Positions 44,913 to 49,279 of a stretch of DNA of 64,000 bases are shown here, piece after piece (within the stretch, counting starts at the first letter, position 1; every line of letters starts with the position of its first letter). Location: NCBI RefSeq assembly GCF_017603825.1, contig NZ_CP072014.1, forward strand, positions 3,286,001 through 3,350,000, read 5' to 3'. This DNA is from Arthrobacter crystallopoietes (lineage in GTDB: Bacteria; Actinomycetota; Actinomycetes; Actinomycetales; Micrococcaceae). The position numbers were made by a program, and so were the translations under genes. Below the pieces are notes generated by a model that searched no databases, had not been told where the DNA came from, and was given only the letters and a program-made list of their open reading frames with translations.

Positions 44913-47402
44913 TTAGGCCGGGACGATATTGACCAGTTTGGGTGCCCGGACGATGACCGTGCGGATGCTGCGTCCGTCAAGCGTTTTGACCACCTGTTCC
45001 GATGCCAAGGCCTTGGCCTTGAGCTCCTCTTCGCTGATGTCCGGGGCTACTTCAAGCCGGTCCCGGACCTTGCCCTGGACCTGGACGACGGCGGTGACCG
45101 TGGCCTGGACCAGCAGCTGCTCGTCGACCGCCGGCCAGCTGGCTTCCGCAACCGAGGGCTCATGCCCAAGCGCTGCCCAGAGGTCCTCTGCGGTGTACGG
45201 AGCGAAGAGGCTCAACACAATGGCGACGGCTTCGGCAGCTTCCCGGACGGCGGGATCGGCGCCGCCGACACCGCTGTCGATCGTCTTGCGCGTGGCATTG
45301 ACCAGCTCCATGAGGCGGGCGATGACCACGTTGAACTTATGGTTGTCCAGCAGTTCGGCGGCGTCGGCGATGGTCCGGTGGGTCACCGAGCGTAGCGCGC
45401 GGTCGCCGTCGGCCGGGTCGGTGCCAACGGCGGAAGTCACGTCCTGGCCCAGCCGCCAAGCACGGGCCAGGAATTTAGCCGAACCCGACGGGGAAACGTC
45501 GGCCCAGTCGACGTCGTCCTCCGGCGGTGAAGCGAAAATCATAGTCAGTCGGACGGCGTCGACACCGAACTTGTCCAGCTGCTCGCCGAGGTCCACCCCG
45601 TTGCCCAGAGACTTGCTCATGGCCTTGCCCCCGTTGAGGACCTGGCCCTGGTTCAGCAGCGCACTGAACGGCTCGTCGAAGTCCACCAGCCCGAGATCCT
45701 TGAGCACCTTGGTGAAGAACCGGCTGTACAGCAGGTGCAGGATGGCGTGCTCGACGCCGCCCACGTACTGTCCGACCGGCAGCCATTTGTTGACCGCTTC
45801 GACGTCGAACGGCCCTTCCGTGTAGTCCGGCGAAGCAAACCGAAGGTAGTACCAGGAGGAATCCACGAAGGTGTCCATGGTGTCCGTATCCCGGGTGGCG
45901 GCGCGTCCGCAGTTCGGGCAGTCCACGTTGACCCAGTCCGCGGCGGCGGCCAGAGGCGATGTTCCCTTGGGCGAGAGCGCTTCGCCGCGCAGGTCTTCGG
46001 GCAGCCGCACCGGAAGCTGGTCATCGGGAACCGGCACCTCGCCACATTCGGCGCAGTGGATGATGGGGATGGGAGCACCCCAGAAGCGCTGGCGGCTGAG
46101 CAGCCAATCGCGGAGCCGGTAGTTGACCGTCTTCTCGCCGGTGCCGGCCGCCTCCACCATGTCGATGGCCTTGGCAATGCCCTCTGCCTTGGACAGGCCA
46201 TCGAGGTCGCCCGAGTTGATCAGGCTGCCTTCGCCGGTGGTGGCGGTCCCGCTGACCGCGGGATCTTCCTCACCGGTGTCCAGCACCGCCCGCACGGGCA
46301 GGTCGAACGTCTTGGCGAAGTCCAGGTCGCGCTGGTCGTGCGCGGGAACAGCCATGATCGCGCCGGTGCCGTAGTCCGCCAGCACGTAGTCCGCGGCCCA
46401 GACCGGCAGTTTCTCGCCGTTCAACGGGTTGATGGCATAACGGCCGAGGAAGACGCCGGTCTTCTCCCGGTCGGTGGACTGGCGTTCAATATCGGAAAGG
46501 GCCTTGACCTTTTCGCGGTAGTCCATCAGCGCATCGTGCTGTTCGGGCGTGACCAGGTCCAGGGCCAGGTGGGCATCCGCCGCAACAACGAAGAACGTCG
46601 CGCCGTGCAGGGTGTCCGGGCGGGTCGTGAAGACGGTGACGTCCTTGGCTTCCCGGCCGTCTGAGGGCTCGATGTTGAAGTTGACGTGGGCACCCTCGGA
46701 CCGGCCGATCCAGTTGCGCTGCATGGCCAGCACACGCTCAGGCCAGCGGCCCTTCAGCTCATCCATGTCATCCAGCAACCGGTCGGCGTACTCCGTGATC
46801 TTGAAGTACCACTGGTTCAGGCTCTTCTTGGTCACCGGCGTGCCGCATCGTTCACAGGCACCGTTGACAACCTGTTCGTTGGCCAGCACGGTCAGGTCCT
46901 TCGGGCACCAGTTGACCGGCGAGTTCTTGCGGTAGGCCAGCCCCCGCTCGTAGAACCGCAGGAACAGCCACTGCGTCCAGCGGTAGTAGTCCGCGTCGGA
47001 AGTATGCAGCCGCCGGGACCAGTCGGCACTGATGGCGTAGCGCTTGAATGACGCCGCCTGCGTCTCGATGTTGGCGTACGTCCATTCGGACGGGTGCGCG
47101 TTGCGCTTGATGGCCGCATTCTCCGCCGGCAGTCCAAAGGAGTCCCAGCCGATGGGGTGCAGGACGTCGTAGCCCTTCAGCCGCAGGTAACGTGCGACGA
47201 CGTCGCCCATGGCAAACGCCTCGGCATGGCCCATGTGCAGGTCACCCGAGGGATAGGGGAACATGTCCAGCACGTAACGGCGTTCCTTCGAGCCGTCGTC
47301 AACGGCCTTGAAGACACCGAGCTCTTCCCAGACGGCAGGCCATTTGGCCTCCATGGCGGAAAAACTGTACTCGTTCGGTTCGGTACCAGACTGCGTACTC
47401 AC
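44913..47402 (-). CDS. leuS: Leucyl-tRNA synthetase
   Basis: LeuS charges tRNA-Leu. The 829-residue class I enzyme has the HIGH motif as HMGH ([20 protein letters not shown]), the CP1 editing domain ([18 protein letters not shown]), and KMSKS as AMSKS ([20 protein letters not shown]). The N-terminus starts [20 protein letters not shown] at GTG 47402, with GAGGAC upstream. The 5' region carries a leucine-rich leader peptide, hairpin and intrinsic terminator, so expression is probably attenuated by charged leucyl-tRNA. degV follows. Confidence 0.98.
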
Positions 47403-47466
47403 GTTGACTTGTCCTCGTCCTCTTGGTTGCTACGGCGCACTCCCGGTGGTTGCCGCTTAGACACAC

Positions 47467-47491
47467 AAAAGCCCCTCGACACGGGAGGGGC
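47467..47491 (-). terminator. Intrinsic terminator in the leuS leader
   Basis: On the minus strand GCCCCTC (47485-47491), a seven-base loop and GAGGGGC (47471-47477) are followed by TTTT. It lies 65 bases upstream of the leuS start, after the leader peptide. It may end glpK transcription or act as an attenuator. Confidence 0.75.
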
Positions 47492-47492
47492 G

Positions 47493-47526
47493 GCCGCACG
47501 TTACGGAAGTGTTCCGTAGGTGCGGC
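47493..47526 (-). promoter_or_regulatory. leuS leader hairpin upstream of the terminator
   Basis: GCCGCAC-C-TACGGAA pairs with TTCCGTA-AC-GTGCGGC around a CAC loop: 14 bp with a small bulge. The 5' arm begins at the leader stop codon. The 3' arm GTGCGGC can also pair with the TCCGCAC that codes for leader residues 2-4. Confidence 0.6.
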
Positions 47527-47549
47527 TAGCTAAGCAGAAGTGCGGACAT
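47526..47549 (-). CDS. leuS leader peptide, leucine-rich
   Basis: A seven-residue frame, MSALLLS, starts at ATG 47549 and ends at TAG. Codons 4-6 are leucine (CTT CTG CTT). A -10-like TAAAGT at 47556-47561 is seven bases upstream of the ATG, so the mRNA may be leaderless. The peptide lies between glpK (ending at 47610) and the terminator before leuS. The arrangement of leucine codons just before paired RNA hairpins is the classic sign of ribosome-mediated attenuation. There is no ribosome site. Actual translation is unproven. Confidence 0.65.
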   Translation of the reverse strand: MSALLLS

Positions 47550-47555
47550 GGAATT

Positions 47556-47561
47556 ACTTTA
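47556..47561 (-). promoter_or_regulatory. -10 box of the leuS leader transcript
   Basis: TAAAGT lies seven bases upstream of the leader ATG. The -35 is not evident. Confidence 0.4.
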
Positions 47562-47609
47562 CCGCAGATCAGCCGAAGGCTTCCCTCGGCACTCCCGGCC
47601 GGATCAGGT

Positions 47610-49124
47610 TCAGCGCACGTCCTCGTCCACCCAGTCGAACGTCCGGGTCACCGCCTTCTTCCACAGCCGCAGCTGCCGGTCACGCTCGGAGGAGTCCAGC
47701 TGAGGTTCCCAGCGACGGTCCTGAATCCAGTTCGACCGCAGTTCCGCTAGGTCCTGCCAGAATCCCACGGCCAGCCCCGCTGCATAGGCCGCGCCCAGTG
47801 CCGTAGTTTCGGCGACCCTGGGCCGGATGACGGGGACGCCAAGAATGTCTGCTTGGAATTGCATCAACGCATCGTTGGCAACCATCCCGCCGTCGACCTT
47901 CAATTCCGCAAGCGGAACGGCCGAATCCGCGTTGACCGCTTCCAGCACTTCGCGGGTCTGGAATGCAGTGGCCTCCAGGGCGGCCCTGGCGATGTGTGCC
48001 TTCGTGACGAACCGCGTCAGCCCCACCAAGGCTCCGCGGGCATCGGAACGCCAGTAGGGAGCAAAGAGGCCGGAAAATGCGGGCACGAAGTATGCGCCGC
48101 CACTGTCGGGTACCGAGGAAGCCAGCTCCTCGACTTCCCCGGCCGAACCAATGATGCCCAGGTTGTCCCGCAGCCACTGAACCAGCGACCCGGCAACAGC
48201 TATCGAACCTTCAATGGCATAGCGCGGCGCGTCGTCGCCGATCTTGTAGGCGACGGTGGTCAGCAGGCCGTTCGCGGATTCAACGATTTCGCTGCCGGTA
48301 TTGACGATGACAAAACAGCCGGTTCCGTATGTGTTCTTGGCTTCCCCGGCGTCGAAAGCCGCCTGTCCGAAAGTCGCTGCCTGCTGGTCGCCAAGAATCC
48401 CGGCAACGGGAACGTGCCGCAGCAGCTGGGATCCATGGACCGTGCCGTACACCTCGGCAGAAGACTTGATTTCCGGGAGCAGGGAAGCGGGCACGTCGAA
48501 AGCCTCGAGGATCGACCGGTCCCAGGCAAGCGTCTTCAAGTCCATGAACAGCGTCCGGGAAGCGTTCGTGACGTCCGTGACGTGGACTCCGCCGTCCGTT
48601 CCACCCGTCAGGTTCCACAGCACCCAACTGTCCGTGGTGCCGAAAAGGAGCTCGCCGGCGTCGGCCTTGGCCCGGGCGCCCTCCACATTGTCCAGAATCC
48701 ATTTCAGCTTCGTTCCGGCGAAGTACGGCGAAAGCGGCAGTCCGGTAGTTGCCTTGAACCGGTCGCTGCCGCCGTCAGCGGCCAGGGCGTCGCAGATAGG
48801 CTGGGTGCGCATATCCTGCCACACGATGGCGTTGTAAACCGGTTGGCCGGTGTTCCGGTCCCACACCACAGTGGTTTCGCGCTGGTTGGTGATGCCTACG
48901 GCGGCAGTATTGTGGCGGGTCAGATTGGCACGGGCCAGCGCGTTGCCAATGACCTCGCGGGTGTTGTCCCAGATTTCCACCGCATCATGTTCCACCCAGC
49001 CTGGCTGCGGAAAAATCTGCCGGTGTTCCTTCTGGCCGGTCGAAACGATCTGCCCTGCATGGTCAAAAATTATGGCCCGCGAGGACGTGGTCCCCTGGTC
49101 GATCGCCAGAATGTAGTCGGACAA
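47610..49124 (-). CDS. glpK: Glycerol kinase
   Basis: GlpK phosphorylates glycerol to glycerol-3-phosphate. The 504-residue protein has the FGGY features: [16 protein letters not shown] at the N-terminus, [20 protein letters not shown], and the C-terminal FGGY_C signature ([20 protein letters not shown]). The start is most likely TTG at 49124, with AGAGG upstream. No glpF or glpD gene is next to it, unlike many clusters, so it stands alone between the leuS leader and the aldo/keto reductase. Confidence 0.97.
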
Positions 49125-49279
49125 AGCAGACCTCTTCCCTAGGACAGGACGCCGGCGCCGGGAGGGCAGCACCGATTGGGCTCGAACCTAGCCCCGCTGC
49201 GGGTGGAGGTCAATTCCTGCCTTGCGCAGATGCGTCTCTTTTACGGCCGTGGTTGGCCGCCGATGCCGGCATTGCTCGG

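Follow-up and report, generated by a model that had tools for sequence, protein, structure and literature searches.

The region between glpK and leuS in the window, by which we mean the whole 64,000-nucleotide stretch of DNA analyzed, is probably (at about 80%) a leucine-responsive, ribosome-mediated transcription attenuator of leuS. It consists of a leaderless, leucine-rich frame, a hairpin, H1, and an intrinsic terminator hairpin, T. Comparison across relatives shows conservation of the frame, its leucine codons, the promoter spacing, H1, T, and the distances between them, and it supports both helices.

The leader element between glpK and leuS

Both glpK and leuS lie on the minus strand and run in the same direction, with the leader element in between, in a genome of 4.38 Mb. 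The features, in window coordinates, are as follows.

47610..49172, minus strand: glpK, the upstream neighbor, outside the element (TIGR01311 glycerol kinase, 746 bits, cut-off 590)
47562..47566, minus strand: TGCGG box directly upstream of the -10 element (TGCGS in most pooled leaders)
47556..47561, minus strand: -10 element TAAAGT, with the transcription start predicted on the ATG (sequence and conserved spacing)
47526..47549, minus strand: leaderless frame MSALLLS and its stop codon (sequence and relatives)
47493..47526, minus strand: hairpin H1, the proposed antiterminator (fold, covariation, and spacing)
47471..47491, minus strand: intrinsic terminator hairpin T, GCCCCTC/GAGGGGC (terminator scan), one base after H1
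47459..47470, minus strand: terminator tail TTTTGTGTGTCT, conserved in the family alignment
44913..47402, minus strand: leuS, the presumed regulated gene (TIGR00396 leuS_bact, 972 bits, cut-off 548)

The initial annotation had described a seven-residue leaderless frame, MSALLLS, with leucine at codons 4 to 6, and this was confirmed on the minus strand. The codons read ATG TCC GCA CTT CTG CTT AGC TAG, with the leucine codons at 47540..47532 and the last of them, CTT, at 47534..47532. Among the named leuS matches listed, which may omit the source genome itself, the closest is that of Arthrobacter mangrovi NBRC 112813 (95% over 200 residues).

The ATG, at 47549, stands 6 nt past the -10 element, so transcription would start on or beside it, in agreement with the promoter that the initial annotation had proposed. 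A sigma-70 consensus scan around the element found no promoter, and the call is made from a conserved TGCGS-TANNNT motif 6 to 7 nt from the start codon. We pooled 238 partly overlapping leuS upstreams (110 from the family Micrococcaceae, 48 from the class, and 80 from named records), in which removal of identical start-to-T sequences reduced 131 leaders to 127. Most of these 127 carry the motif, and no -35 element stands out. The bases before the -10 element, at positions -5 to -2, are T in 101, G in 107, C in 97, and G in 112, and TANNNT and the start codon are 6 nt apart in 108 leaders, 7 nt in 18, and 5 nt in 1, in a scan that permitted 5 to 7 nt. When any distance from 0 to 30 nt was permitted, the family frames with three leucines in a row (LLL) still fell at 6 nt (34 frames) or 7 nt (12 frames), and every other distance was represented once or twice. 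The pattern TGCGSTANNNTN5-7ATG occurs twice in the window's own genome, one occurrence being the leuS leader, against four occurrences in the reversed control, and this count therefore adds nothing to the case for the promoter.

H1 sits at the leader stop codon. Its base is formed by GCCGCAC (47526..47520) pairing with GTGCGGC (47499..47493), followed by a 1x2 internal loop and a further 7 bp (TACGGAA/TTCCGTA), for 14 bp in total. T (47491..47471) follows H1 (47526..47493) one base later with no base shared, so that the 14-bp hairpin, the terminator, and the lack of overlap between them all stand as first annotated. T lies between leader and gene and is followed by TTTTGTGTGT; such sites are expected by chance at 0.6 per 1.1 kb, and GRGGGGCTTTTGTGTGTCT, at up to 2 mismatches, has a single occurrence in the genome. 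The minimum-energy fold contains both hairpins (z -2.63), and 2 of 200 shuffled sequences fold as well. No Rfam family, T-box or other, matches the window at the gathering score, and none matches up to an E value of 5 in 47300..47700.

Several side observations concern the terminator. The tail GGGGCTTTTGTGTGTC is nearly fixed across the family and, with up to 2 mismatches allowed, has no second occurrence in the window's genome. Counting from the final G of T, a pyrimidine-G step is found 10 nt on in 61 of 61 family, 37 of 40 named, and 8 of 25 class sequences, a step which we take to match the elemental pause consensus. A GTG in the tail opens a 21-codon frame (47464..47399) whose TGA overlaps the leuS GTG; a tail frame ending on the leuS start is found in 4 of 8 upstreams of the window's genus and in 4 of 6 of genus g23, and is not kept elsewhere. 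A second translated frame starting from the NTG of the tail, with GAGGGG as a Shine-Dalgarno-like box, was considered and rejected, since among 76 such frames neither frame nor length is conserved and 6 stop after one codon.

Conservation, covariation, and spacing

All but one of the 149 family genomes yielded a LeuS N terminus, and 110 of the 148 upstreams were examined, one of them (L137) only 141 nt long. The initial annotation proposed comparing relatives for conservation of the peptide and covariation of the two hairpins, and both were found. A loose scan recovered the leaderless frame with T in 80 of the 110 upstreams, representing 20 of 31 genera; it did not find the element in 29 upstreams of the other 11 genera or in one upstream of genus g26. 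A strict scan recovered the layout in 63. LLL frames at TANNNT plus 5 to 7 nt, the run of regulated-amino-acid codons expected of a leader whose translation is predicted, occur in 47 of the 110 upstreams versus none in 40 dinucleotide-shuffled sets, and LL or LxL frames occur in 66 (shuffle means, 0.0 and 0.35, respectively). The last leucine codon is CTT in 87 of 96 LLL leaders; CTT accounts for 18 of all 274 leucine codons in six window genes. The N-terminal residues vary among relatives. Within the window's own genus, three of eight members have MSALELSQPR and the other five have MSALLLS, MFALLLS, MFALSLS, or MFAHSLS. Leaders of genus g23 have one or two leucine codons.

Among the 80 named records, the element is present in Arthrobacter, Pseudarthrobacter, and Paenarthrobacter, many with the peptide MRAILLLS, and in none of those scanned from Kocuria, Yaniella, Auritidibacter, Nesterenkonia, and Rothia. 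At the class level, the strict scan recovered the layout in 25 of 48 upstreams, including 8 of 8 f21 genomes, 7 with the peptide MRAVRLLLSEPR and 1 with MRAVRLLLSGPR. A covariance model, R1, was built from 40 family sequences. Its counts are lower bounds, given the strict filters and training on the form ending in TAG. R1 gave at least 27 matches in at least 26 of 99 genomes at the order level, and all 20 of the 27 that were kept as loci adjoin leuS. At the phylum level, matches fell in at least 15 of 198 genomes; 9 of ten further loci adjoin leuS, and a weak match, L300 (E value, 0.005), shows no leuS. In the window's own genome, R1 had at least one match at an E value of up to 10, and no further copy was seen at that threshold among the 150 of 2,916 first-look candidates that were scored.

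Three unusual cases emerged from these searches. The same leader stands before LeuS proteins about 40% identical to that of the window (L280, L282 to L285, L291 to L294, and L296 to L299) and before others 64 to 100% identical (L271 to L279), as if the switch had outlived a gene replacement or predated the split. An assembly titled Sporosarcina beigongshangi REN13 (L211) has an Arthrobacter-like leuS (83%) with the leuS leader and may be misnamed or contaminated. In genus g28, three of five upstreams (L072, L076, and L086) have a leader, MAYFLG, in which the T stem starts on the stop codon and H1 is absent, possibly a simpler switch that works through ribosome masking.

Covariation was assessed on an alignment (A1) of 40 of 79 sequences that were chosen for the presence of H1 and moderate length, a choice that the counts reflect. 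In A1, 97.1% of cells pair, and 42 double-sided changes were counted versus 8.9 in shuffles; the observed values were reached by 0 of 500 shuffles. The double-sided changes in H1 fall in 5 of its 7 basal pairs. All 7 pairs of T are kept in 40 of 40 sequences, 5 of the 7 never varying. As a separate observation, the T core CCCCT/AGGGG (A1 columns 86 to 90 and 102 to 106) is invariant in all 40 chosen sequences while H1 covaries.

Other helices were sought in a screen of 69 anchored columns outside the H1 loop, in 117 sequences (effective number, 40.6) on which a helix of at least 4 bp at offset 5 and gap 0 to 3 had been imposed. The pairs of T and H1 ranked first, and no third covarying helix was found among these columns. 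H1 did not extend into T in register in 114 of the 117 sequences and did so by 1 pair in 3; with the linker skipped, it gained at most 2 pairs, and T did not extend into H1 at all. No antiterminator sharing bases with T was therefore found. Three four-base combinations between the leucine codons and the 3' arm of T are pairable in 80 to 90% of sequences, without covariation, and were given no weight, as pyrimidine-rich codons are expected to pair with a run of G when G-U pairs are tolerated. The initial annotation had also noted a second partner for the 3' arm of H1 inside the leader codons. The letters, CCGCAC at 47545..47540, are present; the pairing is not conserved, a partner with at least 6 Watson-Crick pairs occurring in 3 of 63 family members. 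It was rejected as no better than chance, the mean longest run being 3.63 versus 3.41 after leader shuffling.

The placement of H1 follows a rule. After removal of 2 leaders whose stretch was too short, 125 remained, and in 99 of these the best helix between the last leucine codon and T begins 5 nt past that codon and ends 0 to 2 nt before T, a placement seen in 1.1% of mononucleotide shuffles, which preserve base composition only. The helix search ended at the first base of T, run-in to T having been examined separately. The spacing holds even as the stretch from leucine codon to T ranges from 25 to 67 nt, and it is kept relative to the leucine codons and not to the stop codon. In 82 sequences, including that of the window, the stop codon falls at the foot of H1, and in 35 the frame traverses the 5' arm of H1. 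In this coding-arm group, the frame often reads NNG CCG CGC TGA through the arm, and the arms found are CCGCGC/GCGCGG (19), CCGTGC/GCACGG (2, Arg to Cys), CCGCAC/GTGCGG (1, Arg to His), and CCGCAT/ATGCGG (2, Arg to His). In one member of this group, L071, pairing is poor beyond 5 bp. Since arm changes that alter the peptide come with matching changes in the 3' arm, selection seems to keep the RNA helix of the coding arm.

Proposed mechanism and alternatives

We infer that the frame is translated, that the leader responds to leucine and in which sense, and that H1 counteracts T by abutting it. Transcription would begin on the ATG of the leaderless frame, and a ribosome would translate MSALLLS. 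With plentiful charged leucyl-tRNA, the ribosome would reach the stop codon and cover the 5' arm of H1, T would form, and leuS would not be transcribed. With scarce charged leucyl-tRNA, the ribosome would stall on the leucine codons, most likely the third (CTT). H1, starting 5 nt past that codon, would lie just outside the stalled ribosome and could close; a closed H1, 0 to 2 nt before the foot of T, would hinder the zipping of T in the RNA polymerase exit channel, and the polymerase would read on into leuS. When positions are numbered from the start of the P-site codon, the ribosomal helicase works near +11. With the last leucine codon in the A site, H1 would begin at about +12 and would thus be just free.

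The initial annotation left the antiterminator without a candidate. H1 and T being the only covarying helices, the antiterminator is either H1 or nothing conserved, and from these comparisons it is most likely H1 itself. Sharing no base with T, H1 would have to act by position. If a stalled ribosome controls the antiterminator, the helix should start at a constant distance from the sensing codons and end against the terminator, as H1 does. We advance a broader proposition tentatively, at less than even odds: that attenuators of this kind occur across the actinobacterial class, with an antiterminator that has no base in common with the terminator, closes only when the ribosome stalls on the sensing codon 5 nt before it, and acts by abutment (0 to 2 nt). 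The resemblance to ribosome-mediated attenuation that the initial annotation saw thus stands for the conserved leucine leader, hairpin, and terminator, and does not extend to an antiterminator that shares bases with T.

Some findings count against this mechanism. No bases are contested between H1 and T, and the minimum-energy fold contains both, so base pairing by itself would let the two form together. The g28 upstreams without H1, the g23 leaders with one or two leucine codons, and the 11 genera without the element also count against it. Furthermore, in Streptomyces, leader codon changes had no effect at ilvB, and the outcome of such changes at leuA was at odds with classical attenuation (PMC1262725), so an anatomy of this kind is no proof of attenuation.

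The lack of base competition, together with the absence of support for a third helix, also leaves room for a leucine attenuator in which H1 plays another part, either as a pause hairpin through which polymerase and ribosome stay synchronized or as an aid to T when closed, with the stall acting through contact between ribosome and polymerase. The pyrimidine-G step after T, a hint of pausing at the end of T, fits such a role. However, a pause hairpin need not hold the 5-nt and 0- to 2-nt spacing seen in 99 of 125 leaders, and we regard this alternative as the less likely one.

The initial annotation allowed that T might simply end glpK, which would make the short frame accidental. glpK, which is on the same strand, does end 119 nt short of T, and a glpK end is present in 51 of the 110 family upstreams of leuS. 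However, a promoter and a frame intervene between glpK and T, among the 63 family elements from the strict scan 30 lack a glpK match within the roughly 400 nt examined upstream, 18 of the 51 upstreams with glpK have no strictly detected element, and the leader and H1 recur far beyond the family, which together make a mere glpK terminator highly improbable. Equally improbable is a nascent peptide that itself arrests the ribosome in response to leucine, as the EPR or GPR C terminus of much of the coding-arm group might suggest, given that the last residue (Arg, Cys, or His) tracks the RNA pairing, that the frame ends before these residues in the window's group, and that the N-terminal residues vary. 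The preferred reading remains leucine-responsive attenuation with H1 as the antiterminator.

Relation to known attenuators

The initial annotation knew of no leuS leader of this kind. That claim does not hold, since two accounts are already in print (PMC1262725 and PMC8079986), and the window element is a member of an already known kind of leuS attenuator. The comparisons below are with the available parts of the papers cited. Attenuators of leuS were predicted in 2005 for Streptomyces avermitilis and S. coelicolor, with, as in the window, a leader peptide containing leucine codons and antiterminator and terminator hairpins before leuS (PMC1262725). That prediction covered two genomes; a further difference is the TAG that ends the window's frame where H1 begins. 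A leaderless peptide, leuL2 (MRAVRLLLSEPR, then a stop codon), was reported in 2021 from RNA-seq data for S. lividans TK24; it likewise precedes leuS and is followed by a hairpin and a U-stretch, and the available parts of the report do not describe its response to leucine (PMC8079986). The window has the same set of a leaderless, leucine-rich frame, here with a predicted start site, then a hairpin and a terminator before leuS. The peptide shared by seven f21 genomes is the leuL2 peptide. The window and these genomes have the same spacing and the same helix base, but in the f21 genomes the codons for Glu, Pro, Arg, and stop contain the 5' arm of H1, whereas the window frame stops earlier.

The nearest studied case is ilvBNC of Corynebacterium glutamicum, which likewise has a short leader, regulatory codons near the antiterminator, and adjacent antiterminator and terminator (PMC11857589). 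Its hairpins overlap at a GCC trinucleotide, whereas those of the window share no base, and it has a third hairpin, an antiantiterminator, whereas no third helix is supported here. The Corynebacterium ilvB-II motif, which has been reporter-tested, also combines an upstream frame, a hairpin (P1), and a terminator (P2) (PMC10272879). Its antiterminator pairs part of P2 with the P1 loop; in the window, no such pairing is conserved among the screened columns, which lie outside the H1 loop. We found no report of a leuS leader from Arthrobacter or Micrococcaceae in the open-licence PMC literature, and the available part of PMC13236596 makes no mention of leuS. To the published accounts, in their available parts, this analysis adds the rule for spacing, CTT as the last leucine codon, a helix arm that lies within the coding frame, and hairpins that share no bases.

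Across a large group of actinobacteria, the gene for an essential tRNA synthetase is thus very likely adjusted to the supply of its own amino acid, and a prediction from two Streptomyces genomes is extended to many genera. The exact spacing, 5 nt from the last leucine codon and 0 to 2 nt to the terminator, makes the mechanism directly testable. If it is true, a single hairpin would read the ribosome at one end and act on the polymerase at the other, and if abutment without shared bases does block the terminator, predictors that require overlapping hairpins would miss such switches.
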